The position numbers were made by a program, and so were the translations under genes. Below, piece after piece: positions 13,473 through 30,791 of a stretch of DNA of 64,000 bases (position 1 is the first letter of the stretch; each line of letters starts with the position of its first letter). Source of the stretch: Halomonas alkalicola. Its GTDB lineage: Bacteria; Pseudomonadota; Gammaproteobacteria; Pseudomonadales; Halomonadaceae. The notes beneath the pieces were generated by a model that was not told the origin of the DNA, made no database searches, and worked only from the letters and a program-made list of their open reading frames with translations. Location: the NCBI RefSeq assembly GCF_030704205.1, contig NZ_CP131913.1:1-64000 (forward strand), written 5' to 3'.

Positions 13473-13491
13473 TGTAAAGTAAGATGTAAAG
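13473..13491 (+). promoter_or_regulatory. operator-like direct repeat (TGTAAAG x2, 12-bp period)
   Basis: TGTAAAGT at 13473-13480 and TGTAAAG at 13485-13491 are direct repeats with a period of 12, about 30 bases before the TIGR04255 gene. The second TIGR04255-HTH module has TGTATAG twice with the same 12-base period at 29339-29357. The HTH protein of each module is the obvious candidate to bind there. Confidence 0.5.
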
Positions 13492-13522
13492 CTTCGCCGA
13501 TATTCAGGCTTTCACCCTCAGG

Positions 13523-14320
13523 ATGCTGACTGCTATGAGCCCCCCCGCAACGCAAGCTCCCGTGTTCTATGCCCTTGCCCAGATCAAGTTCAACTGGATT
13601 GAGCAGATGGCCAACTATGTGGGGCCGTTGCAGGACGCGCTGCGCCGTCAGGGCTATCCGGACTACCGTGAAGACCATCAGCTGCACGTGCAGGTGACTC
13701 CCGGGCCCCAGTGGGATGTGCAACGTCAAGAGGTCAAGCGCTGGGTATTCACCGACCAGGCGCAACAGGAAGGTTTCATCCTGCTCAAGGACACCCTGAT
13801 CTTTCAGACAGCCCGGTATTCTCGCTTCACGGCGTTCAAGCAGGCCGTGCTGAAGGGGCTAGAGGCGCTGCACCACGAGGTGGAGCTGGCTTTTGTCGAC
13901 CGCATCGGCCTGCGCTATCTGGATGCGATCCTCCCCTCTCCGGCCTACCCGCTGGAGGCCTTGCTGAACCCTGGCCTGATCGGTCTATATCGTGAGGTTG
14001 CCGGCGCCCCCCAGCACACCGTGACAGAAACCGTCAGTCACGTGGTGGGGGGCACTCTCGTCATCCGCACGCTGCTTTCCGCGCAGGGGGTGGCATTGCC
14101 GCCGGATTTGCAGCCGATGTCGCTGCAGCTGGATGCACGGATTGCGGCATCGCAGGGCGGTGAGGCTGCCGTGCTGGATAGTGATTATTTCGTGACGCAG
14201 CGACAAAGCTTCGATGCCCAGGCCGTGGAACGCCAGCTGGATGCCTCGCATGACGTGATTATCGAGGCGTTTCGGATGGCGACCACGGACCAGGCGAGGA
14301 GAGAGCTATGGCAACTGTAA
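13523..14320 (+). CDS. TIGR04255 family protein, module 1
   Basis: Protein of 265 residues of the TIGR04255 family, whose function is unknown. Typical features are an N-terminal strand (FYALAQIKFNW), a mid-section FQTARYSRFTAFKQAVLKGL and the family hallmark DRIGLRYLDAI near residue 130. There is no signal peptide or membrane segment. ATG at 13523 and ATG at 13535 are both possible starts. It overlaps the HTH gene downstream by 13 bases. A paralogous TIGR04255-HTH pair is present at 29.4-30.7 kb. Confidence 0.75.
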   Translation: MLTAMSPPATQAPVFYALAQIKFNWIEQMANYVGPLQDALRRQGYPDYREDHQLHVQVTPGPQWDVQRQEVKRWVFTDQAQQEGFILLKDTLIFQTARYSRFTAFKQAVLKGLEALHHEVELAFVDRIGLRYLDAILPSPAYPLEALLNPGLIGLYREVAGAPQHTVTETVSHVVGGTLVIRTLLSAQGVALPPDLQPMSLQLDARIAASQGGEAAVLDSDYFVTQRQSFDAQAVERQLDASHDVIIEAFRMATTDQARRELWQL

Positions 14321-14967
14321 ACGTCGAGCATAGCGGCGGTAGTGGGGCGAGCGGCTCCACCTGGGGGTGGGGCGCCGGCGCCCGTCAAACGGTGGCCATC
14401 GCCGCGACCTGCTTTCTCGTTCCTGTCACCTTGGGCGGTGAGCCGGGTTCAGGCGGAGCCGTCACCCCGGAGGCGGCACTGTCACGCCACCAATGGCTCC
14501 AGGACGCCTCGATTGACGTCACTACCGCAACATCGGAAGAAGCGGTCGAGCTGCGCACCCCTGCCGAACGACTGGAATGGATTCGTCAGGCGCTGGGATT
14601 GACGGTGACCGATCTGGCGCGCCTGCTGGGGAGCTCTCGCCCGACCGTCTATGCCTGGCTCAATGGCCAGGAGCCTCGCCCTGACGTCCAAGCACGGCTC
14701 GCCAGGCTGGAGCAGCAGGCCGAGGCGGTCGCTGCCTGCGAGTTGCCGCGCCTCAACAAGCTGATACGGCGCCCCCTGCGCTGTGGTGGCAGCCTGCTGG
14801 AGCGCTTGCAGCAGGATGACCCACTGGAACCGGCCCTCGTCGAGCTGCGGGCGCTGTCGCAGCGTGAGCAGGCGTCTCGTTACCGGCACAAGGGGCAGGT
14901 CGGGACAACTCGCACGATGCGCGAGGCGCTGGATGATGTGGCAACCCCCCTGGATTCTCGAGGGTAG
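14308..14967 (+). CDS. HTH protein paired with TIGR04255, module 1
   Basis: Protein of 219 residues. The N-terminal 60 residues are glycine-rich with one hydrophobic stretch (QTVAIAATCFLVPVTLGG). The middle (residues about 90-135) is a helix-turn-helix, ERLEWIRQALGLTVTDLARL then GSSRPTVYAWLNG, with EPRP following the recognition helix. The C-terminal third is helical and charged. The protein in the second module has the same order: variable N-terminus, HTH with R-LYAW-GSEPR, then a helical tail. It probably represses its own operon, and it may be the antitoxin-like or sensor partner of TIGR04255; that role is inference. Confidence 0.65.
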   Translation: MATVNVEHSGGSGASGSTWGWGAGARQTVAIAATCFLVPVTLGGEPGSGGAVTPEAALSRHQWLQDASIDVTTATSEEAVELRTPAERLEWIRQALGLTVTDLARLLGSSRPTVYAWLNGQEPRPDVQARLARLEQQAEAVAACELPRLNKLIRRPLRCGGSLLERLQQDDPLEPALVELRALSQREQASRYRHKGQVGTTRTMREALDDVATPLDSRG

Positions 14968-14970
14968 ACG

Positions 14971-15804
14971 GTGGCGAGCGATTGGACACGGTCGATGCCC
15001 TGGTCGCAAGGCAGCCTGATTGGTATCGATGACATGGCGACGATGGGATTGGCCGCGGATGACGATGGTGGCTGGGGGGTAGTGATCACTCACGACTGTG
15101 ATCTCGCCAATGATGATCTGGCCCTTGAGCCCTTTGTCGAAGTGATCGTCGCAAGTCCTATGGACGTACCGGATGGCAACTGCCGCCATGCCAAGAACGC
15201 TCGACGGCTCCATCTCGACTGGCAGCGAGCCGATACGGTCCTGTGCCTGGAGCTCTCGGCGACTCGAAAGTGTCGCGTTGCCAAGCGCAACCTGGCGGGC
15301 GTCGCTCCGGTGGCAGATGCCATCCTGGCGCCGGCGGATAAGCATATCCTGCAGAGCTGGCTGGCGGCTCGGTATCGCCGACAGGCGTTGCCCGACAGCC
15401 TGGTGGAGCGGCTGCGGTATGTTTTCCAGCGCCTGGAGAAGAAGGGCAAGACACAGGCATCGACGGTCATTGGCTATTGGCTATCCTTCGCACCGGCCGG
15501 CGAGCTGCCGGCTGAGGAGCCGTATGACCTGGATATCAGCATTGTCTACACCATCGATTCGCCGGACGCCGATACGGCGGCTTTGGCTATTGTCGACGAG
15601 GTGAGCGGCCGTTTCGCAGAGCTCGTGGCCAAGTCGGGGGCTGGCGGCGTCGTGCTGGGGGTATGCGAGGCTTTTTCCGAAGAAGAATTCACGCTTCGCG
15701 ACATCCGTCAGCACGTGGAATACCGCCTGGACTACCTCAGCAATCGAGCTTTCCCGGATGGGGTGGAACTGGATTCGCCCACTAACATGCAAGGACTTAC
15801 ATGA
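14971..15804 (+). CDS. unknown protein with [12 protein letters not shown] motif
   Basis: Soluble protein of 277 residues that I do not recognise as a named family. It begins with GTG three bases after the HTH gene stop and overlaps the epimerase gene by ATGA, so it is the third gene of the TIGR04255-HTH operon. A striking segment near residue 38 reads [20 protein letters not shown], with a conserved-looking HDCDLA core and an E-P after it. The second module at 29 kb lacks this gene. The H-D-C-D cluster could form a metal or active site, but no function is assigned. Confidence 0.6.
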
Positions 15805-16823
15805 AAATCCTCGTGACCGGCAACGCCGGCTTTATCGGTTTCCACACCGCCAAGCGCCTGCTGGAGCGCGGCGACAGCGTGGTTGGCTTCGACGTGGTCA
15901 ACGACTACTACGACCCGGCGATCAAGGAGGCGCGCCTCAAGATCCTGGAGGAGACCGCAGCGCGCACCGGCAGCGAGTATGTGTTCGTGCGGGAGGATCT
16001 GGCCGATCTGGCGGCGGTGAACGCGGCCTTCGAGGCCCACAAGCCCGAGCGGGTGATCCACCTGGCGGCCCAGGCCGGGGTGCGCTATTCGCTGGAGAAC
16101 CCCCACGCCTACGTGCAAAGCAACCTGGTGGCCTTCACCCATATCCTGGAGGCGTGCCGCCATCACAAGGTCGAGCACCTGACCTACGCCAGCACCAGCA
16201 GCGTCTATGGCGCCAATACCAAGATGCCCTTCTCGGAGCACGAGGGGGTCAACCATCCGCTGCAGTTCTACGCCGCCACCAAGAAGGCCAACGAGCTGAT
16301 GGCCCACAGCTACAGCCATCTGTTCGGCCTGCCCACCACCGGTCTGCGCTTCTTTACCGTCTACGGCCCCTGGGGCCGCCCGGACATGGCGCTCTTCCTG
16401 TTCACCAAGAAGACCCTGGCGGGCGAGCCGATCCCGGTGTTCAATCACGGCAATCACACCCGCGATTTCACCTACGTGGATGACATCGTGGAGGGGGTGA
16501 TCCGCGCCAGCGACGATATCGCAGTACCCAACCTCGAGTGGAACAGCGATGCCCCGGACCCGGCCACCAGCAACGCCCCCTACCGGATCTTCAATATCGG
16601 CAACAACGACCCGGTGAAGCTCTCCGCCTATATCGAGGCGATCGAGGAGGCGCTGGGCAAGGAGGCGATCAAGGAGCTGCTGCCGCTGCAGCCCGGCGAC
16701 GTGCCGGATACCTACGCCGACTCCACTGAGCTGGAGAAGGCGGTAGGCTACAAGCCCGCCACGCCGGTGAAGGAAGGCGTGGCCAACTTTGTGGCTTGGT
16801 ACCGGGATTTTTATCGGGTGTAG
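15801..16823 (+). CDS. UDP-glucuronate 4-epimerase-like
   Basis: Extended short-chain dehydrogenase/epimerase of 340 residues. It has the NAD-binding [11 protein letters not shown] at the N-terminus, [15 protein letters not shown], and the catalytic Ser/Tyr/Lys in STSSVYG and [25 protein letters not shown] is the pattern seen in UDP-glucuronate 4-epimerases, which interconvert UDP-GlcA and UDP-GalA. With the Ugd gene just downstream making UDP-GlcA, this would supply UDP-GalA to the polysaccharide. The ATGA overlap with the unknown gene upstream suggests coupled translation. Confidence 0.85.
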
Positions 16824-16864
16824 GTGGTAGCTGGTGGCACTGCCCCGGGTGGTGGCGCGGCCCC

Positions 16865-16930
16865 GGGGTCAGACCCTTAAGCAGTCTTAGGCAAAAAGCA
16901 CGCCCAAGCCGGCTTAAGTGTCCGACCCCT
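16865..16930. repeat. REPIN-type palindromic repeat, copy 2
   Basis: GGGGTCAGACCCTTAAGCAG, CTTAGGC, a loop, then GCCGGCTTAAGTGT and CCGACCCC. It lies between the epimerase gene and ugd, starting 42 bases after the epimerase stop. Confidence 0.85.
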
Positions 16931-16982
16931 TCTTTGGTGGCGCCCCTGCGTGGGCGGCCGGTGCGATTCAAGGAGTTAAGTA

Positions 16983-18332
16983 ATGCGAGTGACAGTGTTT
17001 GGCACCGGCTATGTGGGCCTGGTGCAGGGGACGATCCTGGCCGATGTGGGCCATGAGGTGGTCTGCGTGGATGTGGATGCGGAGAAGATCGCCAGGCTGG
17101 AGCAGGGCATCATCCCCATCTATGAGCCGGGCCTGGAGGGCCTGGTGAAGGAGAACCACGCCGCCGGGCGGCTGCGCTTTACCACCGATGCGGCCATGGC
17201 CGTGGCGCATGGCGATATCCAGTTTATCGCCGTGGGCACGCCGCCGGACGAGGATGGCAGCGCCGATCTGCAGTATGTGCTCAAGGTGGCCGAGACCATC
17301 GCCGAGCATATGGCGGCCCACCGCATCATCGTGGATAAATCCACCGTGCCGGTGGGCACCGCCGACAAGGTGCGTAAGCGGGTAAGCGAGGTGATCGAGG
17401 CCCGGGCCAAGGCGGGCGAAGTGAGCGCAGAACTCACCTTTGATGTGGTCTCGAACCCGGAGTTTCTCAAGGAAGGCAGCGCCGTGGCCGACTGCCAGAA
17501 ACCCGACCGCATCATCATCGGCACCGAGGATGCGCATACGGTGGAGGTGATGCGCGAGCTCTACGCTCCCTTCAGCCGCCAGCACGAGAAGATCATCGTG
17601 ATGGACGTGAAGAGCGCCGAGCTGACCAAGTACGCCGCCAACTGCATGCTGGCCACCAAGATCAGCTTCATGAACGAGATCGCCAACCTGGCCGAGCGGC
17701 TGGGGGCGGATATCGAGGCGGTGCGCCAGGGCATCGGCTCCGACCCGCGCATCGGCTACCACTTCATCTACCCCGGCGTGGGCTACGGCGGCTCCTGCTT
17801 CCCCAAGGACGTGCAGGCGCTGATCCGCACCGCCGACGGTATCGACTTCGACGCCAAGGTGCTCAAGGCGGTGGAGGCGCGCAACGCCGAGCAGAAGACC
17901 ACCCTGTTCGCCAAGATCCGCGACCACTTCGAAGGCGAGCTGGCCGGCAAGACCTTCGCCGTGTGGGGGCTTTCCTTCAAGCCCAACACCGACGACATGC
18001 GCGAGGCCCCCAGCCGGGTGCTGATGGAGGCGCTGTGGGAGGCCGGCGCTCGGGTGCAGGCCTATGACCCCGAGGCCATGGAGGAGACCCAGCGCCTCTA
18101 CGGCCACCGCGACGAGCTGACCCTCTGCGGCACCAAGGAGGCGGCCCTGAAGGGCGCCGACGCCCTGGTGATCGTCACCGAGTGGCAGAGCTTCCGCGCC
18201 CCGGACTTTGAGCTGATCAAGGCGCAGCTCAGCCAGCCGGTGCTCTTCGACGGCCGCAACATGTTTGAGCCCGCCCGCATGGCGAAGAAGGGCTTTACCT
18301 ACTACTCGGTGGGGCGGCTGCCGCAGGGGTAG
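16983..18332 (+). CDS. ugd: UDP-glucose 6-dehydrogenase
   Basis: Enzyme of 449 residues with the usual three parts: an N-terminal NAD domain ([21 protein letters not shown]), a central helix with [20 protein letters not shown], and a C-terminal domain. The catalytic cysteine lies in [13 protein letters not shown] near residue 264. It oxidises UDP-glucose to UDP-glucuronate with two NAD. A strong AAGGAG ribosome site precedes ATG at 16983. It differs in length and sequence from the E. coli-type Ugd copies at 25.8 and 37.0 kb, so it is not a recent duplicate of them. Confidence 0.93.
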
Positions 18333-18420
18333 TGGTCGCCCAGCGGGGGTGGTGGCGCCGCCCAGCGGGGTGCTCTCCCACAGGGGTGGCGCCCCGCCCA
18401 CCGGGGGGCGCCCCTCCACC

Positions 18421-18505
18421 GGGGTCAGACCCTTCGGCAAACTTAGGCCAACCCCCGCCTAAGTGTGCCGAAGTGTCCGACCCCTGCGTTTAAGTGTCTG
18501 ACCCT
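18421..18505. repeat. REPIN-type palindromic repeat, copy 3, plus extra half-arm
   Basis: GGGGTCAGACCCTTCGGCAA, CTTAGGC, loop, GCCTAAGTGTGCCGAAGTGT, CCGACCCC, then an additional half-arm TTAAGTGTCTGACCC ending at about 18504. It fills the gap between ugd and the TviB-like gene. Confidence 0.87.
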
Positions 18506-18523
18506 GCAATCAAGGATCTTTCG

Positions 18524-19801
18524 ATGGTGAATATGGACAATGTGCGTCTGGGCGTGATCGGCCTGGGCTATGTGGGCCTGCCGCTGGCGGTGGAGTTTGG
18601 CAAGGTGCTGCCCACCGTGGGCTTCGATATCAACACCAAGCGCATCGCGGAGCTTCGCGACGGCGTGGACCATACCCTGGAGGTGGAGCCGGAGCTGCTG
18701 GCCGAGGCGAGCCAGCTGAGCTTCGAAAGCGAGGTTGAGGCGCTCAGGGCCTGCAACGTCTATATCGTCACCGTGCCTACGCCGATCGATTCGAGCCGCC
18801 GGCCGGACCTGACGCCCTTGATCCGCGCCAGTGAGACCCTGGGCCAGGTGGTGGGGCAGGGTGACGTGGTGATCTATGAGTCCACCGTCTACCCGGGCGC
18901 CACCGAAGAGGCGTGCATCCCGGTGGTGGAGCGGGTCTCCGGGCTCACCTACAACCGCGACTTCTTCGCCGGCTATAGCCCCGAGCGGATCAACCCGGGC
19001 GACAAGGAGCACCGCGTCACCACCATCAAGAAGGTGACCTCCGGGTCCACCCCCGAGGTGGCCGACTTCGTGGATGCGCTCTACGGCCGGGTGATCACCG
19101 CCGGGACCCACAAGGCGAGCTCCATCGCCGTGGCCGAGGCCGCCAAGGTGATCGAGAACACCCAGCGCGATATCAACATCGCCCTGATCAACGAGCTGGC
19201 GGTGATCTTCAACCGCCTGGGGATCGACACTGAGGAGGTGCTCCAGGCCGCCGGTACCAAGTGGAACTTCCTGCCGTTCCGCCCGGGGCTGGTGGGCGGC
19301 CACTGCATCGGCGTGGACCCCTACTACCTGACCCACCGGGCGGAGCAGGTGGGCTACCACCCGGAGATGATCCTCGCCGGGCGGCGCATCAACGACGGCA
19401 TGGGCGCCTACGTGGCGAGCCAGCTGATCAAGCAGATGATCAAGCGGCGCATCCACGTGGAGGGCGCCCGGGTGCTGGTGATGGGCCTCACCTTCAAGGA
19501 GAACTGCCCGGACCTGCGCAACACCCGGGTGGTGGATATCCTCAGTGAGCTGGCCGACTACAACGTGGCGGTGGATGTCTTTGACCCCCAGGTGAACAAG
19601 GCCGAGGCCGAGGCGGAGTACGGCATCCGCCCGGTTCAGGCCCCCGAGGCCGGCGTCTACGACGCGGTGATACTCGCCGTGGCCCACCGCGAGTTCCAGG
19701 CGCTTGGCGCTGAGGGCATCCGCGCCTGGGGCAAGCCCGAGCACGTGCTCTATGATCTCAAGTACGTGCTGCCCAAGGAGAGCGTGGACCTGAGGCTGTA
19801 A
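18524..19801 (+). CDS. tviB: UDP-N-acetylglucosamine 6-dehydrogenase (TviB/WbpA-like)
   Basis: Nucleotide-sugar dehydrogenase of 425 residues. The NAD motif [18 protein letters not shown] is at the N-terminus, [11 protein letters not shown] and [14 protein letters not shown] follow, and the catalytic cysteine is in [15 protein letters not shown] near residue 255. These motifs match the TviB/WbpO/WecC group rather than Ugd and fit oxidation of UDP-HexNAc to the uronic acid. ATG at 18524 after AAGGAT is preferred; the frame stays open back into the upstream repeat. The TviC-like epimerase gene follows, the same pair as in Vi antigen and WbpO/WbpP loci. Confidence 0.9.
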
Positions 19802-19824
19802 TCCACCTTTGTGGCCTCTCCCCC

Positions 19825-19890
19825 GGGGTCAGACCCTTCGGCAAACTTAGGCCAACCCCCGCCTAAGTGTGCCGAAGTGTCTGACCCCTG
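19825..19890. repeat. REPIN-type palindromic repeat, copy 4
   Basis: Same type A arms as the 18421 copy, with GTCTGACCCC at the right end. It lies between the tviB- and tviC-like genes. It is followed by a short tandem string (GGCATTGTGG twice) before the ribosome site of the next gene. Confidence 0.87.
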
Positions 19891-19939
19891 GCATTGTGGC
19901 CACCCCTGGCATTGTGGTGCCTGCAATCAAAGGAACGTC

Positions 19940-20980
19940 ATGAGTCGTTACGAAACCCTGCGGGGCGAGCTTGCCGCCGCGCCGCGTACCTGGCTGGTGA
20001 CCGGCTGTGCCGGCTTCATCGGCAGCAACCTGCTGGAGACCCTGCTCAGGCTCGACCAGCGCGTGGTGGGCCTGGACAACTTCGCCACCGGCTTTCAGGC
20101 CAACCTGGATGAGGTGCGCTCGCTTGTCAGCGCCGAGCAGTGGGCGCGCTTCACCTTCATCGAGGGCGATATCTGCGACCCGGCCACCTGCCGGGCGGCG
20201 GTGATCCTCGATGGCAAGCCGGTAAACCATGTGCTGCACCAGGCGGCGCTGGGCTCGGTGCCGCGCTCCATCGCCGACCCGATCGCCAGCAACGCGGCCA
20301 ACATCGGCGGGCAGCTCAACATGCTGGTGGCCGCCAAGGACGCCGGGGTGACGAGCTTCGTCTATGCGGCCTCGAGCTCCACCTATGGCGACCACCCGGC
20401 GCTGCCCAAGGTGGAGGAGCGCATCGGCAAGCCGCTGTCGCCCTATGCGGTGACCAAGGTGGTCAACGAGATGTATGCCGACGTCTTCGCGCGGACCTAC
20501 GGCTTCAAGGCCACCGGGCTTCGCTACTTCAACGTGTTCGGCAAGCGCCAGAACCCCAACGGCGCCTATGCGGCGGTGATCCCCAAGTGGGCCGGCGCCA
20601 TGCTCACCGACGAGACGCTGTTCATCAACGGCGACGGCGAGACCAGCCGCGATTTCTGCTATATCGCCAACGCGGTGCAGGCCAACCTGCTGGCGGCCAC
20701 CGCGGACGACGCGGCCCAGGGGGAGGTCTACAACGTGGCGGTGAGCGGGCGCACCACCCTGAACCAGCTGTTCGAGTACCTGCGCGCCGCCCTGGCCGAG
20801 CAGGGGGTGAGCTACGCCCAGGCCCCCACCTACCGCGACTTCCGCCCCGGCGACGTGCGCCACTCCCAGGCGGACATCGGCAAGGCCAGCCGCTTGCTCG
20901 GCTACGCCCCCAGCCACACCATCGTGGAAGGCATCAGCGAGGCCATGCCCTGGTACATCGAGCACTTCCGGCGGGGGTGA
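19940..20980 (+). CDS. tviC: UDP-N-acetylglucosamine 4-epimerase (TviC/WbpP-like)
   Basis: Extended SDR epimerase of 346 residues. The NAD-binding motif is [19 protein letters not shown], and the catalytic serine/tyrosine/lysine lie in [15 protein letters not shown] and [20 protein letters not shown] and [16 protein letters not shown] are characteristic of the WbpP/TviC group acting on UDP-GlcNAc or its uronic acid. With the dehydrogenase upstream it would provide UDP-GalNAcA. ATG at 19940 has an AAAGGAACG ribosome site; an in-frame extension to 19811 is only repeat sequence. Confidence 0.9.
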
Positions 20981-20989
20981 GGATGCCCC

Positions 20990-21125
20990 GGGGTCAGACC
21001 CTTCGGCAAACTTAGGCCAACCCCCGCCTAAGTGTACCGAAGTGTCCGACCCCTGCGGCCGAGCCCTGCTTAGGGGTTGTACCCTTAAGTAAACGTCGAA
21101 GCCTGGCCATGCGCCGGGCTTCTTA
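20990..21125. repeat. composite palindromic repeat, copy 5 (type A plus type C)
   Basis: A full type A palindrome (20990-21053) is linked by GCGGCCGAGCCCTGC to a half-unit CTTAGGGGTTGTACCCTTAA. The stem AAGCCTGGC-CAT-GCGCCGGGCTT at about 21101-21122 then ends it. The same half-unit plus GC stem recurs at 24601 and 34265. The GC stem could act as a terminator for the polysaccharide operon. Confidence 0.8.
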
Positions 21126-21198
21126 GTTGTTGGGAGGAGGTGGGGTCGGTTAAGAAAAAATCGTTGCTTGGTTGTGAACTGAAGATTTTCTTGCTGTA

Positions 21199-22758: not shown

Positions 22759-22798
22759 GCCAACCCCCGCCTAAGGGTGCCGAAGTGTCTGACCCCTG
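22734..22798. repeat. REPIN-type palindromic repeat, copy 6 (inside Fic gene end)
   Basis: GGGTCAGACCCTTCGACA, CTTTAGGC, loop, GCCTAAGGGTGCCGAAGTGT, CTGACCCC. It overlaps the last eight codons of the Fic gene and supplies its TAG stop. GCGGCCGAGCCCTGC follows, as at 21055. Confidence 0.87.
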
Positions 22799-22858
22799 CG
22801 GCCGAGCCCTGCTCAGCTAGGGTTATCAACAAGTTACGTCTGGAGCTTAAGGCCGCCA

Positions 22859-24616
22859 ATGTTGACGCACGACGAGTTCGAGCAAGCCATCAAGGCCCTG
22901 CTGGCCCCCCTCTCTGCGGAGCAGTTGCGTGCCCTGCTGCAGCGCTGTGCCGAGGAGACTCACCCGCTCCAGCGCCAGGCGTTCATCGAGCGCCTGCGCC
23001 ATCACTGTCTGGAGGGGCATGAGCCGAGCAGCTCAACCGCCGGTAATCGTTGCACCCTGTCGGCACGCTTGGCCGAGATGCAGGCCCAGCTCGAGGCCAT
23101 CGCCCAGGCCGAGCCGGAGTGGGGCGCTTTCGACGAAGAGGACGGGTGCGGGCCTTTTGCCCCTGTGATGCCCGACCTCTTCGACCTGTTGGACGAGGCG
23201 GCTACCTGCCTGTCTCAGGCAGATCCCCAAACAGCCCGAGAGACCTATGCGGCGATCTGGGCGATGGTAGAGATCGAGAACGACTATGGTCACTCGCCGA
23301 GCTTGGAAGAGGTCGATGAGGCCATTGCCCGTGAGCATGCGGCGCGCTATCTGCGCGCGGTCTATCTGACCACCGCTGCCGAGCAGCGGGTTGACGCACT
23401 GCTGGAGGCGGCCAGCCGGGTCTGCTTGGCCGGGAGCGTGTCGCCCGTCGTGGTTCGCTGCTGCACACTCCGGGAGATCGCCGGGGTGGCCTCGACGCCA
23501 TTGCCTGGCTGGGAAGCCTTTCTTGGTCGCCTTGCGAGCGAACGGCAGACGCCCCGATCGCTGCTCGAGTATCAGTGGCTGCGGGAAGCCTTGGCCAGCC
23601 ACCAGGGCCTAGAGGGGATCGCAACTCTTGCCAAGCGGGCCGGGTCGGGCATGCCCCGGCTGTGGCTGGACTGGGTGAGCGGGGCCATTCGGCAGGGCGA
23701 TCTGTCACAGGCGTCGGCTGCCTGGCAGGCGGCCCAGTCGCACTTTGCCCGTGGGGCCGGGATCTGGCACGAGTTCGCCGAGTGCTTCCAGGAAGATGAG
23801 CGCTGGCTCGCGCTGCCCCAGGCGGCAACCATTGCCTTCGAAGCCCTGCTGGCCAAGCCCTGCGCCCAGTGGCTTCAGGCTCTCCAGGCGGCCTGCCTGG
23901 AGAATGGCGCTCGCCAACGGCGGCTCAGGGAAGCCGCCGCCTGGCTGGCGACGGCGGCACAGCAGGGCGGTCCGCCCAGTGCCCAGGGCGCCGCCGCGTC
24001 GCTCGCAGGCGCCTTGGCGGATGGCCCGGCGCGCCTGGACCAGTGGCTAGTGCGCCCCACATCCTTCGCGCCTTGGGGGCCGATGGCCGTGTTGGCGTGG
24101 TGCCTCGCCGGTGATCTGCGCCAGGCCGAAGGGCTGCTCCCCTCCCGGCAGGACAGCCTGGGGTGGTCGCTGGGCGATAGTCCCAGCTGGGCGCTGTTTG
24201 CTTGTCTGCCCACGCTGCTGGCAGAACGGCCGGTAGCGGAGATCGGCCCGGCGGCCCAGGCCATGTGGCGGCAGCTGATTGTTACGAGCCCCGGCGAAAG
24301 CGGCGCCATCGCTGAGCCCCTCAACCAGGCTATGCTAATGGCCTGCCGGCAGACGCCACTCCAGCCCGACGAGAAGCAGGCCTGGCTGCACTGGTGCGCC
24401 GAAACGGCGACCGAGCGCTGCCATTCGATCGTTTCCGCCCAGCACCGCAAGGCCTACGCCAGGGCGGCGACCTGCGTGGCGCTATGCCGAGAAACGGCCC
24501 AGGCCATGGGGCAAGCGGCTAGCGGAGACGATCTGGTCCAGCGCATACGGCAGCGCTACCCACGGCATACTGCCTTCCAGCGCGCCCTCGACCAGGCCCT
24601 GGGGTCAGACCCTTAA
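22859..24616 (+). CDS. unknown 585-residue alpha-helical protein
   Basis: I do not recognise this protein. It is alanine- and leucine-rich, almost entirely helical in appearance, and looks like a solenoid of helical repeats (for example AARYLRAVYLTTAAEQRVDA and WLDWVSGAIRQGDLSQASAA). It has no signal peptide, membrane segment or catalytic motif. The N-terminal segment MLTHDEFEQAIKALLAPLS recalls SWIM-associated or helical scaffold proteins, but this is weak. The final residues GSDP and the TAA stop come from a palindromic repeat that begins at 24601. It stands alone between the Fic gene and a truncated ImmA/IrrE gene. Confidence 0.65.
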   Translation: MLTHDEFEQAIKALLAPLSAEQLRALLQRCAEETHPLQRQAFIERLRHHCLEGHEPSSSTAGNRCTLSARLAEMQAQLEAIAQAEPEWGAFDEEDGCGPFAPVMPDLFDLLDEAATCLSQADPQTARETYAAIWAMVEIENDYGHSPSLEEVDEAIAREHAARYLRAVYLTTAAEQRVDALLEAASRVCLAGSVSPVVVRCCTLREIAGVASTPLPGWEAFLGRLASERQTPRSLLEYQWLREALASHQGLEGIATLAKRAGSGMPRLWLDWVSGAIRQGDLSQASAAWQAAQSHFARGAGIWHEFAECFQEDERWLALPQAATIAFEALLAKPCAQWLQALQAACLENGARQRRLREAAAWLATAAQQGGPPSAQGAAASLAGALADGPARLDQWLVRPTSFAPWGPMAVLAWCLAGDLRQAEGLLPSRQDSLGWSLGDSPSWALFACLPTLLAERPVAEIGPAAQAMWRQLIVTSPGESGAIAEPLNQAMLMACRQTPLQPDEKQAWLHWCAETATERCHSIVSAQHRKAYARAATCVALCRETAQAMGQAASGDDLVQRIRQRYPRHTAFQRALDQALGSDP

Positions 24617-24676
24617 CCCTGCTGAGGGGTCGTACCCTTAAGGCAACTTCGAAGCCCTGCCATGTGCCGGGCTTCT
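24601..24676. repeat. type C repeat, copy 7 (supplies gene end)
   Basis: GGGGTCAGACCCTTAACCCT, GCTGAGGGGTCGTACCCTTA, then GGCAACTTCGAAGCCCTGCC and ATGTGCCGGGCTTC. The left arm encodes the last codons and stop of the 585-residue protein. The GC-rich stem (AAGCCCTGC/GCCGGGCTT) may terminate transcription. Confidence 0.8.
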
Positions 24677-24734
24677 TGGTTAGGCCCTTGCCAACTTGGC
24701 AGGCGAGTGTCGTGCCGATGGCTGGCGGAGAGGC

Positions 24735-24770
24735 CGCCGCCGGGAGTCTGACCCGGCGGGGTGCGGCGTT
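24735..24770 (+). repeat. type B repeat
   Basis: GCCGCCGGGAGTCTGACCC followed by GGCGGGGTGCGGCG. It is a copy of the string at 25727 and, inverted, at 2221. Confidence 0.65.
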
Positions 24771-24847
24771 GTTAACGCCAGAGCGTTCGATTCAGGGGCG
24801 GAATCTGTCCTTCTGTCAGGCTGCCGGGCCGAAGCTCCTGCTACACT

Positions 24848-25561
24848 TTGCCCAGCAAGACACTGAATCCGAACAGAGGGAATTGGGAAGCGTACTTCCG
24901 CGATCTGGTTCAGCGCATCGAGCGGCTGGGCATTCTTGTCATGCGCAGCGGCATTGTCGGGAACAACACGCGGCGAGTGTTGAGCGTGGAGGAATTTCGC
25001 GGCTTCGCTATCGCCGACCCCGTCGCACCGGTGATCTTCATCAATGCGGCCGATGTGCCTGAAGCGCGCCTGTTCACGCTTGTGCATGAGCTGGCTCATA
25101 TCTGGCTGGGAGAGTCCGGGATTTCCGATGGCGATCCAGCCAACCGCAGGCGCACCGAGAAGCTGTGCCATGCGGTCGCGGCGGAATTTCTGGTGCCGGA
25201 GGCAGAGTTTTTGCCACTGTGGCAGGAAGTAGAGGATTGGAAAGCCAACCTGGCGCCGCTGGCCGCGCATTTTCATGTGAGCCAGTGGGTGATTGCTCGC
25301 CGGGCCCAGGAACTCGAACTGATTGCAGAGCAGGACTACCGGCAATATGTGGTCAATCGGCTGGAGGCCTACCGCCATAGGGAAGAACGCGGTGGACCAA
25401 GCTTCGATCGTGTGGTCCCCGGGCGGGTCAGCAAACGCCTGGCCCAGGCGGTGGCAAGTGAGGCGATGAGCGGGCGGCTGTTGCTGAGAGATGCCTACCG
25501 GCTGATTGGCGTGAGACCACATAGGCTCAAGACGTTTGCCCGCAAGGAGCTCGGCCTGTGA
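24848..25561 (+). pseudogene. ImmA/IrrE-type metallopeptidase, N-terminally truncated
   Basis: The frame encodes an ImmA/IrrE family peptidase domain with the zinc site HELAH in FTLVHELAHIWLGESG near residue 82 and a downstream glutamate in AAEFLVPEAEF. Family members of this subtype normally have an N-terminal XRE helix-turn-helix domain and run to about 370-400 residues. Here only about 237 residues remain and no HTH is encoded upstream. The first codon of the open frame is a TTG without a ribosome site, and the sequence immediately upstream contains repeat elements. A deletion of the 5' half is the simplest reading; an internal start making a stand-alone peptidase cannot be excluded. Confidence 0.7.
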
Positions 25562-25570
25562 CCCGCTGGC

Positions 25571-25680
25571 GGGGTCAGACCCTTAAGCCGATTTAGGGGT
25601 CTGACCCTTCGGCCAACCTCAGTCAACCTGGAAGCCACTGGCGTAGCTCCTTGGGTCAGCCCCTTGGGTCAGACCCCTGC
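25571..25680. repeat. palindromic repeat cluster, copy 8
   Basis: GGGGTCAGACCCTTAAGCCG, TTTAGGGGTCTGACCCTTCG, then separated degenerate arms near 25651 and 25666 (TTGGGTCAGCCCC, TTGGGTCAGACCCC). The arrangement suggests nested or repeated insertion and decay. Confidence 0.75.
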
Positions 25681-25726
25681 CACCTTGCCAGGCCTGTGTG
25701 GTGCCAGTAGCTTGGGCGGTGCTCGC

Positions 25727-25760
25727 CGCCGGGAGTCTGACCCGGTGAGGCGCGGCGCCG
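25727..25760 (+). repeat. type B repeat
   Basis: GCCGCCGGGAGTCTGACCC followed by GGTGAGGCGCGGCG. It is followed closely by a further degenerate arm (GGGATCAGACCC) just before the ugd copy. Confidence 0.65.
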
Positions 25761-25806
25761 GTGGGATCAGACCCGGATGTCAAAGCTTGAAACATAAGGA
25801 ACTGCT

Positions 25807-26975
25807 GTGAACATAGCCATTGCCGGTACCGGCTACGTCGGTCTCTCCAACGCCATGCTGCTGGCCCAGCACAACCGGGTCGTGGCGGTGGATATCGTCC
25901 CCGAGCGGGTCGCGATGCTGAACGAGGGGCGCTCGCCCATCGAGGATGCCGAGATCAGCGAGTTCCTGGCCCACCGCCAGCTGGACTTCACGGCGACCCT
26001 GAACAAGGAGGCCGCCTACCGCGAGGCCGACTTCGTGGTGATCGCGACCCCCCCACCGACTACGACCCGAAGACCAACACCTTCGATACCTCGAGCGTCG
26101 AGGCGGTGATCCAGGACGTGATGGCGATCAATCCGGCGGCGGTGATGGTGATCAAGTCCACCGTGCCGGTGGGCTACACCGCGGAGGCGAGCCGGCGCTT
26201 CGGCACCGAGAACCTGCTCTTCTCGCCGGAGTTCCTGCGCGAGGGCAGGGCGCTCTACGACAATCTCCACCCGTCGCGGATCATCGTCGGCGAGCACTCC
26301 GCCCGGGCCGAGACCTTCGCCGGCCTGCTCAGGCAGGGGGCGCTGGACGACGAAATCCCGGTGCTCTTCACCAACAGCACCGAGGCGGAGGCGATCAAGC
26401 TCTTCGCCAACACCTATCTCGCCATGCGGGTGGCCTACTTCAACGAGCTGGACAGCTACGCCGAGACCCACGGCCTGGATACCCGCCAGATCATCGAAGG
26501 CGTGGGGCTCGACCCGCGCATCGGCAAGCACTACAACAACCCCTCCTTCGGCTACGGCGGCTACTGCCTGCCCAAGGACACCAAGCAGCTACTGGCCAAC
26601 TACCAAGACGTGCCGAGCAACATCATCGCGGCCATCGTCGATGCCAACCGCACCCGCAAGGACTTCATCGCCGAGCAGATCCTAAAGCGCCAGCCGCGGG
26701 TGGTGGGGGTCTACCGGCTGATCATGAAGACCGGCTCCGATAACTTCCGCGCCAGCGCCATGCAGGGTGTGATGAAGCGCATCAAGGCCAAGGGCATCGA
26801 GGTGGTGGTCTATGAGCCGGTGCTCGCCGAGGAGACCTTCTACGGCTCCCGGGTGATCCGCGACCTCGACGCCTTCAAGGCGCTCTCCGACGTCATCCTG
26901 AGCAACCGCATGGCCGAGGAGCTCAACGACGTCGCCGAGAAGGTCTACACCCGCGACCTCTTCGGCAGCGACTGA
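25807..26975 (+). pseudogene. ugd: UDP-glucose 6-dehydrogenase, frameshifted copy
   Basis: This is a near-identical duplicate of the intact E. coli-type ugd at 37005-38171, including the GTG start and the bases GGAACTGCT just before it. Seven consecutive C residues at about 26048-26054 replace five in the intact copy (IATPTDYDP becomes IATPPPTTT). The frame is lost there: residues 1-80 or so are in one frame and the remaining 290, with the catalytic [10 protein letters not shown] motif, in another. The rest of the gene has kept its reading frame and differs mainly at synonymous positions and near the C-terminus. That points to a recent event, to reversible slippage, or to a sequencing error in the C tract. 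Confidence 0.88.
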
Positions 26976-27001
26976 CCGAACGCTCCCGCCATCCAGCCCC
27001 C

Positions 27002-27066
27002 GGGGTCAGACCCTTCAGCCAACTTAGGCAAACAGCCGCCTAAGTTTCCTGGAGTGTCTGGCCCCT
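27002..27066. repeat. REPIN-type palindromic repeat, copy 9
   Basis: GGGGTCAGACCCTTCAGCCA, CTTAGGC, loop, GCCTAAGTTTCCTGGAGTGT, CTGGCCCC. It lies between the frameshifted ugd copy and the MqsR-like gene. Confidence 0.82.
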
Positions 27067-27137
27067 TTGTGTTAGGCCGAGTCCAACCGCCTGCTGCCGG
27101 GACGGGGCTATTGCAATACCAAGGGGTGGTTACCATA

Positions 27138-27557
27138 ATGGTAAGTAGAACTAACGTCAGCCGCTATGCTGGAGCGCCGCCGGAGCACGGTGATCACGAC
27201 CGTACCATTGCAGGAGGCCCACTCTATCCCGCGTCAGATGTGTTAGCGGCACTGCAGGACAAGGGGTTGGTGCTGTGGACGCAGCGCTCGATCAGGAGGG
27301 CGCAGGAGCTCGGACTGGATGCCGATGACGTTGCGGACCTACTTCGTTCGGCTTTGCAGCAGGGACGTTACAAAAACAGTGAGTGGTGCCAGCAGAAGCC
27401 CGACGGCCCCTGGGCGGCCAGCGACGTTTACCTGTTGACGCGCCATGAATGGAATGACAGAGCCTTTCGTGAACTCCCAGCACACTACTATCTGAAATTT
27501 GCTTTGGCCAAGAGTGGACGCCTGGTATTGACGGTGTCGTGCCATGTCCAGACCTGA
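27138..27557 (+). CDS. mqsR: MqsR-family toxin
   Basis: Protein of 139 residues with the MqsR/RelE-like mRNA interferase pattern. Segments include LYPASDVLAALQDKGLVLWT, a helix RRAQELGLDADDVADLL, and the C-terminal DVYLLTRHEWND then YYLKFALAKSGRLVLTVSCH, which is the typical beta-sheet end. It would cleave mRNA when freed of its antitoxin. ATG at 27138 is chosen because the open frame upstream runs into the palindromic repeat. It is the first gene of a three-gene operon with an MqsA-like antitoxin and a SecB-like protein. Confidence 0.82.
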   Translation: MVSRTNVSRYAGAPPEHGDHDRTIAGGPLYPASDVLAALQDKGLVLWTQRSIRRAQELGLDADDVADLLRSALQQGRYKNSEWCQQKPDGPWAASDVYLLTRHEWNDRAFRELPAHYYLKFALAKSGRLVLTVSCHVQT

Positions 27558-27572
27558 TGCCAAGGAGGCGCT

Positions 27573-28196
27573 ATGACAGCCCACCAGGATATGCTCTGCC
27601 CCATCTGTGAGGCGGGGACGTTGACGCCTCAAATCGCCGAGAACGAGGTGACGTACAAGGGCCATACACGGAGCCTGCCGTTGCTGATGTCTGTCTGCCA
27701 GGCCTGCGGTTCCGAGCAGGCCAGTGCCCAGCAGACGCGCGACAACAAGCGCACGATGCTGGCCTTCCGCAAGGAGGTGGATGGCCTGTTGACGGGGGCC
27801 GAGCTGCGTGCACTGCGAGACCGCCTGGGTATCTCCCAGGCACAGGCCGCACGGTTGTTCGGCGGCGGTCCGGTCGCCTTCTCCAAGTATGAGAACGATG
27901 ATGTGGCCCAGTCCGAGGCCATGGACCGCCTGATTCGACTGGCGGCGGATGTGCCGCAGGCATTGCGCTGGCTGGCACAACGTGCCGGGGACGCTGAACT
28001 GGCGAGCGCTGTTACCACCCAGGGATTCTGTGATTACCTGGCTGCCATGGGGCGCTACGCGCAAACCGTTGCCGTGCTGTCCCGTTCGATCGATGTCCAG
28101 CATCGTTACTCCGAGCCCCGGCAGGTCATTCGATTGTCGCGTATTGGTGAAGATCACGGCCGCTGGACCCAGCGCGAGGAAACCCTAGTGCTCTGA
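27573..28196 (+). CDS. mqsA: MqsA-family antitoxin
   Basis: Protein of 207 residues in two parts: an N-terminal zinc-binding domain with CPICEAGTL and CQACGSEQ (two CxxC pairs), and a C-terminal HTH near residues 70-130 (LRDRLGISQAQAARLFGGGP then AFSKYENDD) as in MqsA. It carries a tail of about 70 residues beyond E. coli MqsA, which may be the chaperone-addiction region seen in toxin-antitoxin-chaperone systems. An AAGGAGG ribosome site lies between it and the toxin stop 16 bases upstream. It should neutralise MqsR and repress the operon. Confidence 0.85.
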   Translation: MTAHQDMLCPICEAGTLTPQIAENEVTYKGHTRSLPLLMSVCQACGSEQASAQQTRDNKRTMLAFRKEVDGLLTGAELRALRDRLGISQAQAARLFGGGPVAFSKYENDDVAQSEAMDRLIRLAADVPQALRWLAQRAGDAELASAVTTQGFCDYLAAMGRYAQTVAVLSRSIDVQHRYSEPRQVIRLSRIGEDHGRWTQREETLVL

Positions 28197-28209
28197 AGGA
28201 GCCCATGGC

Positions 28210-28704
28210 ATGAGCGTCCAACTGCAAATGTCCCCCCTGCAGCTCAAGGAGCTGCTGTATAAAAAGATTTTGATAGAAGCGGCGGTGGATCTGACTGAGG
28301 CGGAGGGCTACTGGGCGCCAACCTTCGACTTCGAAGGAGTGAAGTTGGTGGCCGATCTTGCCGTTGGTTTCGCCAAGGGCCAGCAGGACGATCCCAGGCA
28401 GTTCATGGTCGAAATGACGGTGGCGATCCCCAACAATCCAGAAGATGGCAAGCGGGCCCCTTATACCCTAGATATCCAGGCCCAGGCATGGATTGAAGTC
28501 GCCGATGGCATTCCCAAGGACAAGCGGCGTGAGATCGTGGAGGTCAATGGCGCCTCCCTGATCCTCGGCGCGATTCGTGAGCTGGTATTGCAGGTAACCG
28601 GGAGGTCCGGGCTAGGCCCCATGCTGCTGCCGACGCTGCGATTCCTCCCGCAGCCAGCCCCGGGGTCAGACCCTTCGGCAAACTTAGGCAAAACCCACGC
28701 CTAA
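28210..28704 (+). CDS. SecB-like chaperone of a toxin-antitoxin-chaperone operon
   Basis: Protein of 164 residues resembling SecB-like chaperones: a beta-rich N-terminal half (MSPLQLKELLYKKILIEAAV, then LVADLAVGFAKG) and a C-terminal helix INGA/ILGAIRELVLQVTGRS followed by GPMLLPTLRF, which is the SecB GP-x-LP-x-x-F signature. It starts 13 bases after the MqsA-like gene. In TAC systems the chaperone binds the antitoxin tail and is needed for its stability. The last 15 residues ([14 protein letters not shown]) and stop are translated from the palindromic repeat at 28662, so the native C-terminus was altered. Confidence 0.7.
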   Translation: MSVQLQMSPLQLKELLYKKILIEAAVDLTEAEGYWAPTFDFEGVKLVADLAVGFAKGQQDDPRQFMVEMTVAIPNNPEDGKRAPYTLDIQAQAWIEVADGIPKDKRREIVEVNGASLILGAIRELVLQVTGRSGLGPMLLPTLRFLPQPAPGSDPSANLGKTHA

Positions 28705-28765
28705 GTGTCCCGAAGTGTCCGACCCCTGCGGCCGAGCCCCGCTTAGGGGTCGTACCCTAAAGTTG
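28662..28765. repeat. composite palindromic repeat, copy 10 (inside SecB-like gene end)
   Basis: A type A palindrome (28662-28727) is followed by GCGGCCGAGCCCC and a half-unit GCTTAGGGGTCGTACCCTAA. The left arm is translated as the C-terminus of the SecB-like protein. Confidence 0.85.
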
Positions 28766-28786
28766 ACTTCGGTAAAGCGCGGTAAT

Positions 28787-28813
28787 GAAAAGCCCGCCTA
28801 CGGGGCGGGTGCC
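28787..28813 (-). terminator. rho-independent terminator of the small minus-strand gene
   Basis: On the minus strand: CCCGCC-CCGTA-GGCGGG followed by CTTTTC, starting 18 bases past the stop of the 52-residue gene. On the plus strand the same stem has no T run. Confidence 0.7.
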
Positions 28814-28830
28814 TGGACGACGACGAAGGA

Positions 28831-28989
28831 TCAAGAAGACTTGTGAGCTGCCTTCTGCAGCACCAGCTGTTGACGCTGGTTGGCGCGTTCAATCACCTGA
28901 CGATAGACATCACGCTTGCGCTCAGGGCTGGCGTCGCGGATGAATGCGGACAGGGGGCTGCTGCAGGTCTTGGCGTCTTTGGTCATCAT
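28831..28989 (-). CDS. small conserved-looking protein, 52 residues
   Basis: A short minus-strand gene starting MMTKDAKTCSSPLSAFIRD and continuing as a charged amphipathic helix (SPERKRDVYRQVIERANQR) to the end. A good ribosome site (GAGGAAG) lies eight bases before the first ATG, and a terminator hairpin follows the stop, so this strand is preferred over the overlapping plus-strand frame. I do not know a function; the composition suggests a small cytoplasmic helical protein. It stands alone between two palindromic repeats. Confidence 0.7.
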   Translation of the reverse strand: MMTKDAKTCSSPLSAFIRDASPERKRDVYRQVIERANQRQQLVLQKAAHKSS

Positions 28990-29076
28990 AGCGGCTTCCT
29001 CGTCTTCTCGGCGAGCTTCTGCAGAAGAGGCTGGCGAGCGTATCCTTCGGCAATGTAGGTGTCAATTCAGCCCACC

Positions 29077-29142
29077 GGGGTCAGGCCCTTCGGCAAACTT
29101 AGGCAAAACCCCCGCCTAAGTGTGCCGAAGTGTCCGACCCCT
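29077..29142. repeat. REPIN-type palindromic repeat, copy 11
   Basis: GGGGTCAGGCCCTTCGGCAA, CTTAGGC, loop, GCCTAAGTGTGCCGAAGTGT, CCGACCCC. It is followed by TTTGACCCTCCGCCCG, also seen after the copy at 36242. Confidence 0.87.
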
Positions 29143-29240
29143 GCCTTTGACCCTCCGCCCGGTTGGCGCCGTCGTCATCCGCCCCTGGGTCAAGCCCGAG
29201 CACGTGCTTGGCCATGCGAGTGGCCTGCTTCATCAGCCCT

Positions 29241-29285
29241 CGGGGTCAGGCCCTTAAGGGCGCTTAGGGGTCGGAGCCTTAAGGT
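29241..29285. repeat. type C repeat, copy 12
   Basis: GGGGTCAGGCCCTTAAGGGC, GCTTAGGGGTCGGAGCCTTA, AGGTGACTT. It sits just upstream of the operator-like repeat of the second TIGR04255 module. The roughly 100 bases between this and copy 11 show no gene. Confidence 0.8.
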
Positions 29286-29338
29286 GACTTTGAGCTCTGT
29301 CGAACGCCTGGGCCAAGTGGTGGTCTGTGGTAGTCGTG

Positions 29339-29357
29339 TGTATAGTTGAGTGTATAG
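29339..29357 (+). promoter_or_regulatory. operator-like direct repeat (TGTATAG x2, 12-bp period)
   Basis: TGTATAGT at 29339-29346 and TGTATAG at 29351-29357, spaced exactly 12 bases as in the first TIGR04255 module (13473-13491), and 22 bases before the ATG at 29380. The shared form is TGTAWAGT-N4-TGTAWAG. Confidence 0.5.
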
Positions 29358-29379
29358 TTTTCTGATGGGGGGAGCACTG

Positions 29380-30183
29380 ATGGGCCAGTCGGTCCGCTAT
29401 CCCAAGCTGGAACGCCAGCCGCTGTCGCTGGTGCTGGCAGAGTTTCGTTTCTCGCCCCTGCAGGCGTCGGTAAGTCGTCTGTTTGCCTTGCAGGAACAGA
29501 TGCAGCAGGCCTTCGGCAAGCTGGAGGAGTACACCACTCACACCCTGCGTCTGGCACCGGACGGCAGCCAGGAGAAGGCCAGCGGCTGGGGGTTCCTGTT
29601 CCGTGCCGAGGCGGGGGATAGCCTGGTTCTGGTCGAGCCGGAACGACTGGTTTATATCACGTCCCACTACCCTCGATTTCCGGCCTTTGCCGCACGCTGC
29701 ATGGAGGCGGTGACCCTGCTGGAAGAGGCCCTGGCACCCGGCCAGCTGCTGCGCGTCGGGTTGCGTTTCAATGATGTGGTGGTGCCCGGCCAGGGGGAGT
29801 CGCTGGAGGCCTACCTGGACAGCAGCCTGCTGCCGCCGGCTGCCCTGGCGTCTCTGGCAGGCCCACTGGCAGGGCACCGTACTGAAACCCAGGTGGAGAC
29901 CGATGCGGGGCGACTTGTGGTGCGCGCCCTGGTGAGCGGGCACGGCCTTGCGGTGATGCCGGATATCGACCCGCATGTTCAGCTGGCCCAGCCGGACGAG
30001 GTGCCTCGCGACAGGCTCACCGCTGTGCTCGATTTCGATCACTTCTGGCGCGCCGAGCAGAACCAGGCCGAGGCGTTTTCTCGGGTGGCGGTTCACCGCC
30101 GCCTGGAGGCGCTTCATGAACCCGCGAGGGAGGCCTTCTGGCGCGTTACCACCGAGTGGGCAAGGAGGGAGCGATGGTCCTAG
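29380..30183 (+). CDS. TIGR04255 family protein, module 2
   Basis: Protein of about 267 residues of the TIGR04255 family: PLSLVLAEFRFSPL near the N-terminus, a central VYITSHYPRFPAFAARCMEA and the hallmark LLRVGLRFNDVVV near residue 128. It corresponds segment by segment to the module 1 protein at 13.5 kb but is clearly diverged. ATG at 29380 has a GGGGGGAG ribosome site; ATG at 29365 is possible. It overlaps its HTH partner by 10 bases. Confidence 0.75.
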   Translation: MGQSVRYPKLERQPLSLVLAEFRFSPLQASVSRLFALQEQMQQAFGKLEEYTTHTLRLAPDGSQEKASGWGFLFRAEAGDSLVLVEPERLVYITSHYPRFPAFAARCMEAVTLLEEALAPGQLLRVGLRFNDVVVPGQGESLEAYLDSSLLPPAALASLAGPLAGHRTETQVETDAGRLVVRALVSGHGLAVMPDIDPHVQLAQPDEVPRDRLTAVLDFDHFWRAEQNQAEAFSRVAVHRRLEALHEPAREAFWRVTTEWARRERWS

Positions 30184-30743
30184 TCATCCAGAGCCAAGCA
30201 CCGGCACAGCCTCAACTGGCAGAGCTGGGCTGGGGGGATACGGCTTTCACTGATTGGCTGCTGGACAGCAGCGGCGGCTCTGTGCGGCGCTTCTTTTCAG
30301 ACGCTTCAGGGAGCCGGAGGGGCCTGCGTCAGCTGCCCGGCCTGCGGGCTGGGGACGAGGCGAATGGCAACGGTAGCGCCGCATCGCCTCTGGTGCAGCG
30401 GCTGGACGCTATTGCCGACAGCTTTGCGCTGAATCACCAGCAGCTGGCAGATGCCTGCGGAGTCTCCCGTGCCGCCTTGTATGCCTGGCGGGATGGCTCA
30501 GAGCCTCGGCGGGGCGCCCTGCAGCGTATTTCGGCCCTGCATCGGGCGGCACTCGATTGGCAACGCTCCGGTTTTCCCCGGCCAACTGCCACCCTGCAGC
30601 TGCCTCTGTTCAAGCAGCACAGCCTGCTGGACCTGCTCTGTGCCACACCGTTGGATCTCGAGGCTATCCACTTTCTGGGAATGCGTCTGGCGCTTCGCGA
30701 CACGGAAGTCTCGGCAGGCGAGCTGTATGACCCGTTCCGGTGA
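30174..30743 (+). CDS. HTH protein paired with TIGR04255, module 2
   Basis: Protein of 189 residues. A glycine/serine-rich N-terminal 75 residues precedes an HTH at about residues 75-115 (LVQRLDAIADSFALNHQQLA, then GVSRAALYAWRDGSEPR), followed by a helical tail. The recognition helix region (SR..LYAW..GSEPR) closely matches the module 1 partner (SRPTVYAWLNGQEPR). An AAGGAGGG ribosome site lies inside the end of the TIGR04255 gene. No homologue of the third module 1 gene follows; a TnpB element comes next. Confidence 0.65.
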   Translation: MVLVIQSQAPAQPQLAELGWGDTAFTDWLLDSSGGSVRRFFSDASGSRRGLRQLPGLRAGDEANGNGSAASPLVQRLDAIADSFALNHQQLADACGVSRAALYAWRDGSEPRRGALQRISALHRAALDWQRSGFPRPTATLQLPLFKQHSLLDLLCATPLDLEAIHFLGMRLALRDTEVSAGELYDPFR

Positions 30744-30770
30744 GAGCGCGTGACCAAAAGGCGCGACAAG

Positions 30771-30791
30771 CCTCGGCACTTCAGGCCGAGG
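30771..30791. repeat. hairpin at left end of the TnpB element
   Basis: CCTCGGC-ACTTCAG-GCCGAGG, a seven-base-pair stem 65 bases before the tnpB start, followed by a TATAAT-like box near 30821. Subterminal hairpins of this kind mark the ends of IS200/IS605 elements. The exact left cleavage site was not identified. Confidence 0.5.

Follow-up and report, generated by a model that had tools for sequence, protein, structure and literature searches.

A mobile three-gene operon with a TIGR04255 protein, a probable helix-turn-helix regulator and a predicted MazF/CcdB-fold protein in Halomonas alkalicola and P2-like prophages

What kind of unit is formed by the two related gene pairs of Halomonas alkalicola in which a TIGR04255 gene (here A) is followed by a helix-turn-helix (HTH) gene (B), behind a tandem repeat? 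Both pairs lie in the window analysed here, positions 1-64,000 of NZ_CP131913.1 in a genome of 3,611,010 bases, and a preliminary description of this DNA had taken them for a two-gene system. The number of genes has to be corrected: the unit comprises three genes in the order A-B-C, the third (C1) having been overlooked, and the second module is an A-B remnant. We read A-B-C, with a probability of roughly 0.6, as a mobile, autoregulated, three-gene toxin-antitoxin-like operon, whose probable use lies in competition among mobile elements. What the sequence itself shows is the gene content and order, the operator, the covariation of operator and recognition helix, the location and the congruent divergence of the three genes.

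All the elements of both modules lie on the forward strand. Module 1, as judged from its sequence, is a complete copy of the operon. It consists of: (i) operator 1, the direct repeat TGTAAAG-N5-TGTAAAG with a 12-bp period (TGTAAAGTAAGATGTAAAG, 13473..13491); (ii) A1 (13523..14320, with a start at 13523 or 13535), encoding a TIGR04255 protein (E 2.8e-37); (iii) B1 (14308..14967), encoding an HTH protein, the probable autorepressor or antitoxin, with an N-terminal GSGG form of a GTGG motif; (iv) C1 (14971..15804), encoding a protein of 277 amino acids with a predicted MazF/CcdB fold at the N-terminus and a b-b-a-b region behind it. Module 2 is built from operator 2, TGTATAG-N5-TGTATAG with the same 12-bp period (TGTATAGTTGAGTGTATAG, 29339..29357), the TIGR04255 gene A2 (29380..30183, start approximate), whose product is nearest to Acinetobacter/Vibrio-type copies, and the HTH gene B2 (30156..30743, with an alternative ATG at 30174). 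Alternative starts of A2 are present at 29350, which falls within operator 2, and at 29365. In both modules the start of B lies within the end of A, and B1 and C1 are separated by three bases.

The scores of A1 and A2 against the NCBIfam model TIGR04255 are 128.9 and 109.2 bits, respectively, at a curated cut-off of 30 bits, and no other protein of the genome matches it. B1 has clear HTH matches; those of B2 are weak (Pfam HTH_3, E 0.012, under its cut-off), and B2 can be aligned to other B proteins with 34% identity over 104 amino acids (E 6.7e-17). The overlap of a TIGR04255 gene with an HTH gene, described for both modules, is thus borne out by coordinates, family scores and HTH matches. 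The recognition segments of B1 and B2 are SRPTVYAWLNGQEPR and SRAALYAWRDGSEPR; their YAW-type likeness had been recognised correctly, the spacing had not, since three residues rather than two separate SR from YAW. The closest named relatives of C1 and B1 come from Halomonas. An Rfam scan of 13000-39500 gave zero matches, a scan for promoters and terminators around operator 1 found none, and a sequence search of solved structures returned nothing for A1 and two chance-level rows for C1.

Motif scans of the window and genome identified both operators. With up to 1 mismatch, TGTAWAG-N5-TGTAWAG matches twice in the window, compared to a mean of 0.01 in shuffled sequence; with 0 mismatches it occurs exactly twice in the whole genome, once before each A, and the reversed control gives 0 matches. 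The 12-bp-period repeats are therefore as first described, and exclusive to the two modules genome-wide. The same architecture recurs in distant bacteria. Among 121 loci with A and C, 107 were left after removal of 4 short upstream regions and 10 duplicates, and a TGTMAA pair exactly 12 bp apart precedes A in 86 of these unique loci, as against 22 of 2140 control windows, which were drawn at random from the same loci with the operator itself left in place. A motif-free test agrees: 8-mer repeats with at least 7 of 8 positions identical are present at lag 12 in 70/107 upstream regions and in 44/535 controls, the second most frequent upstream lag being 19 (27/107). The operator copies lie nearly all on one strand (251 vs 13), and the median distance from the end of the pair to the start of the homology of A is 38.5 bp (86 loci).

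The half-site follows the recognition helix of B. Where Q or P stands after SR, the TGTMAA pair is present in 81 of 93 loci; with K, R or T it is present in 0 of 8, and 7 of these 8 carry a perfect lag-12 heptamer repeat of another half-site, in a group that includes two near-identical pairs and hence fewer independent cases, with 6 further loci untypable. Module 2, with SRA and TGTATAG, agrees with this covariation. Since the half-site differs with the recognition helix while the 12-bp spacing stays, the covariation points indirectly to binding of the repeat by B. The coupling of the genes, a likely autoregulation and a shared operator architecture, all proposed in the preliminary description, are supported.

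The three genes form a conserved unit. Among loci containing C, the order A-B-C was found in 57/59 from genome contigs scanned with the C alignment and in 48/50 from viral contigs. The four exceptions are two contig ends (L101 and L106), a locus with B and C in which no A was found (L083) and a lone C fragment (L154). On plasmids, tblastn detected C in 10 records, all of which also carry A; the order is A-B-C in 9/9 records opened, the C record of Gloeocapsopsis being left out of this count. Since the local profiles for A, B and C derive from proteins of the window and the plasmids, in the case of C also from nine further matches, loci of these two sources are bound to match them. Judged by record titles, the hosts presumably belong to Pseudomonadota, Cyanobacteriota, Acidobacteriota, Bacteroidota, Verrucomicrobiota, Myxococcota, Desulfobacterota, Deinococcota, Actinomycetota and Spirochaetota; many of these records are metagenome bins, and single phyla may reflect contamination. 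A, B and C diverge congruently (Mantel r 0.86-0.89, 0/999 permutations; 14 partial or redundant loci dropped, then 107 thinned to 60). The genes are rare in the host family, with A in 3 and C in 1 of 250 genomes, own genome included, and C was found in just 2 of 50,697 annotated phage records, both Acinetobacter phage assemblies. A large protein collection yielded 565 relatives of C1 at E up to 0.001, and none of the 120 relatives listed carries a precomputed Pfam domain. In the Meiothermus C gene (L008:6001-6807), an in-frame stop codon lies close to the conserved W-x-QG motif at the N-terminus, and the annotated start is downstream.

Prophage copies are found at a characteristic place. The DNA of one such copy was matched in 19 of 5426 E. 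coli genomes at 20 places, all chromosomal. Of these genomes, 18 reach at least 99% with 80% or more of the query covered, and one reaches 64.5% with 77% covered. In both E. coli regions opened, the operon lies in a P2-like prophage between a replication gene with a DinI-like neighbour and the portal gene, which is incomplete in one of them. The proteins encoded there are WP_000106358, WP_001368407 and WP_021576385, B being annotated as a transcriptional regulator. A replication gene upstream together with portal or terminase downstream was recorded for 23/50 viral loci, and at least one of these flanks for 29/50; for genome loci the values are 0/59 (both flanks) and 1/59 (one flank). At least 23 of the 50 viral copies thus occupy the gpA-gpQ interval, and the window copy does not. 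According to Rousset et al. (2022, PMC9122126), this interval of P2-like phages is an anti-phage hotspot, from which old-tin, three of eight further cloned systems and the system of phage AC1 block phages.

The N-terminal domain of C is predicted to adopt the MazF/CcdB toxin fold, that is, the toxin barrel of the PemK/MazF/CcdB superfamily. For B, a GTGG-type motif is a conserved feature, present in 69 of 88 proteins compared to 5.1% in shuffles. A membrane anchor in B was considered and rejected, a hydrophobic stretch occurring in just 34/87 proteins. The model of A1 is predicted with a mean pLDDT (predicted local distance difference test) of 93.3; guanidino kinases gave the best re-aligned structure rows for A, which were too weak for this assignment. 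The fold of C is a prediction; repression, toxicity, the role of A and defence we infer in the following way. B would act as an HTH autorepressor, binding the tandem heptamers with 12-bp spacing that immediately precede A. It would probably also help to restrain C. C, with its MazF/CcdB-fold domain and second region, would be the effector, probably toxic to the cell once released. A would be the third component, most likely a sensor or neutralising partner linking a trigger, e.g. phage infection, to C. The unit moves on plasmids and prophages, and its place in the phage-exclusion hotspot of P2-like prophages makes competition against other phages, maintenance of the element, or both, its likely role. 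The putative stress or defence function proposed earlier is favoured by the location and by the predicted fold of C.

Several results weigh against this interpretation. The strict TGTMAA pair is missing in 21 of the 107 upstream regions, a few of which have no clear repeat, and in 12 of the 93 Q/P loci, some of them without any visible repeat. No Pfam family matches C at E up to 1, so that it is not a member of PF02452 by sequence, and profile comparison of C with 23 PemK proteins by hhalign gave a probability of 0.2%, i.e. no signal. Foldseek E-values of C are no better than 3e-3, at query template-modelling (TM) scores of about 0.3, and unrelated rows appear from rank 16. The Arg-Pro segment of MazF was not seen in C at the tentatively aligned place, the register being that of a non-significant alignment. 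The fold match of A is weak, and PADLOC has no match to A or C. In a viral structure library C found nothing at E ≤ 0.001; the best row was an unnamed Pandoravirus protein (E 2.6e-3, query TM 0.20), and one PemK-like row had E 0.12.

Other explanations were weighed against the same data. A-B-C may be an addiction module that stabilises its plasmids, prophages and islands without itself acting against phages. The occurrence of C in 10 plasmid records and on 50 viral contigs and its predicted toxin-type fold would suit such a module, as would the non-defence genes, e.g. partition systems, that share the P2 hotspot (PMC9122126). However, a conserved third gene exceeds the needs of simple addiction, and the operon repeatedly uses the cos-proximal P2 hotspot, the source of old-tin and of the three phage-blocking systems among eight further ones cloned (PMC9122126), so we consider this account rather unlikely. 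That A-B-C is already known under another name, for instance as the P1-blocking three-gene system of the P2 hotspot (Rousset et al., 2022), is very improbable. Hotspot and gene number agree with it, yet that system is described (PMC9122126) without a clear predicted domain, whereas B of E. coli is annotated as a transcriptional regulator; PADLOC-DB 2023, which may not model this system, has no match to A or C of E. coli at E up to 10.

The roles within the operon might also be swapped, A being the active enzyme and the barrel of C a binding or neutralising domain, which we regard as improbable. Little chance is likewise given to a harmless accessory regulatory operon with a non-toxic C barrel. 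Such an operon would account for the missing sequence link of C to toxins, and we know of no A-B-C phenotype; it fits poorly with the sporadic, mobile distribution (A in 3/250 and C in 1/250 family genomes, own included), the recurrence in distant bacteria and the position in a defence hotspot.

Compared to known systems, the toxin-antitoxin-like operon favoured here resembles MazEF, PemK-Kid and CcdAB in having a DNA-binding gene just before a gene for a predicted MazF/CcdB barrel, in its likely autoregulation and in its mobility. It differs from them in that C is longer (277 amino acids) with an extra region, has no detectable sequence relation to these toxins, and stands in an operon headed by A. 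Toxin-antitoxin-chaperone (TAC) modules consist of three adjacent genes, the third of which, SecB-like, may control toxin release. A-B-C shares the three adjacent genes and possibly such control by a third component, but A belongs to TIGR04255, not SecB (A1 and A2 are without Pfam matches up to E 1), and gene order and folds differ. With the gpA-gpQ anti-phage cassettes (old-tin etc.) the operon has location and size class in common and, as far as the text of PMC9122126 available goes, not the proteins. The literature searched, with most subscription papers and bioRxiv outside it, contains no mention of TIGR04255 or, by accession number, of the E. coli proteins, and, in titles and abstract openings on three-component MazF-like toxin-antitoxin systems, no named A-B-C operon.

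Module 2 appears from its sequence to be a diverged A-B copy, a remnant that lost C. The window holds no second C gene, and the C profile finds C1 alone in the whole genome, plus a chance-level match of 29 residues at E 0.03. The remnant reading is preferred because relatives of A2, found without reference to C, carry C: it is present in 4/4 plasmid records and in 2/2 other genomes, the latter found among 274 genomes sampled from the class. The twelve best matches of A2 among the fetched loci all have B and C, the top one being an Acinetobacter plasmid copy (32% identity); most of these loci had been fetched through C. This comparison included loci without C and repeated one confined to A-B-C loci. 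At the expected C2 site (30744..31242, forward strand) there is a short stretch and then a TnpB-like fragment (30856-31242, Cas12f/Cas12u-type matches), with no relative of C. A transposase-like gene, which we take to be IS1380-like, follows at 31451. The simplest reading is that C2 was lost through transposon activity.

TIGR04255 is not confined to this operon. In a phylum-wide sample, 30/398 genomes contain the family (33 matches, 31 loci examined, two without a locus; the two of the window are counted). A B-type gene was found at 8/31 loci and C at 6/31, so the general TIGR04255-HTH pairing suggested previously is not supported; TIGR04255 genes without HTH partners, named at that time as a point against the proposal, do speak against it for the family as a whole but not for the A-B-C branch. 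At seven loci (L018, L028, L032, L043, L045, L004 and L040; six from the 31 surveyed, one from the host-family search) a WDG-motif protein of 163-206 amino acids lies directly behind A, and these operons have no match to B or C profiles. On a Rhizobium plasmid (L017:5866-8039), the TIGR04255 gene has two different partners, which overlap, and lies just behind a multiubiquitin/ThiF/DUF6527 cluster; C is not matched there, and the 140 bases preceding A show no repeat. Several loci share the family of A and differ in partner, and TIGR04255 is thus a shared component of several operons. Only tentatively, it might be a general sensor or control part joined to several unrelated effector cassettes, here guarding a new toxin of MazF/CcdB fold within an immune system carried by phages, with an HTH switch on a 12-bp tandem repeat and the GTGG motif of B releasing C once A senses infection.

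The setting of the modules beside toxin-antitoxin and defence-type genes, pointed out before, is supported by Pfam and PADLOC matches of the neighbours. An MqsA-family antitoxin gene (E 1.2e-36) and a gene with a weak, sub-cut-off SecB match occupy 27573-28704, a possible toxin-antitoxin-chaperone module in which 27054-27557 may be the toxin. The Fic protein encoded at 21199-22758 matches PADLOC candidate PDC-S24 (E 4.7e-164); its neighbour (22859-24616, 585 amino acids) is matched neither by Pfam (E up to 0.001) nor by PADLOC (E up to 0.01). Further downstream lie a HipA-like kinase gene (34858-36129) and, at 36310-36924, an addiction antidote gene of the HI1420 type next to a short gene. Four UDP-glucose/GDP-mannose dehydrogenase-type genes, one of them shortened, were identified at 16983-18332 (by sequence), 18494-19801, 26106-26975 and 37005-38171 (by Pfam), and share the same palindrome-separated region.

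The palindrome in question is imperfect, about 64 bp long (GGGTCAGACCCTT...AAGTGTCCGACCCC), and its 11 sites (13222, 16866, 18422, 19826, 20991, 22734, 27003, 28663, 29078, 36180 and 38200) all lie within 25 kb of the 3.61 Mb genome, 0.4-7 kb apart. They separate units holding A-B-C, UDP-glucose dehydrogenases, an epimerase, Fic and toxin-antitoxin genes; shorter related palindromes are also present, one at 62472. At a stricter cut-off, 4/90 genomes of the genus contain the palindrome, own included; in each of the other 3, two copies lie about 2.7-3.6 kb from one another, and one such pair flanks a PemK gene. One copy precedes A in L047. The palindrome has the appearance of a REP-type element or of a boundary between cassettes.

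A predicted toxin fold hidden from sequence searches would thus be present in a three-gene unit of distant bacteria and of an anti-phage hotspot, unmatched by PADLOC for A and C. The fixed spacing, together with a half-site that depends on the helix, would make B a clean case for DNA-binding specificity, and the A-B-C operon gives the orphan family TIGR04255 a testable context.
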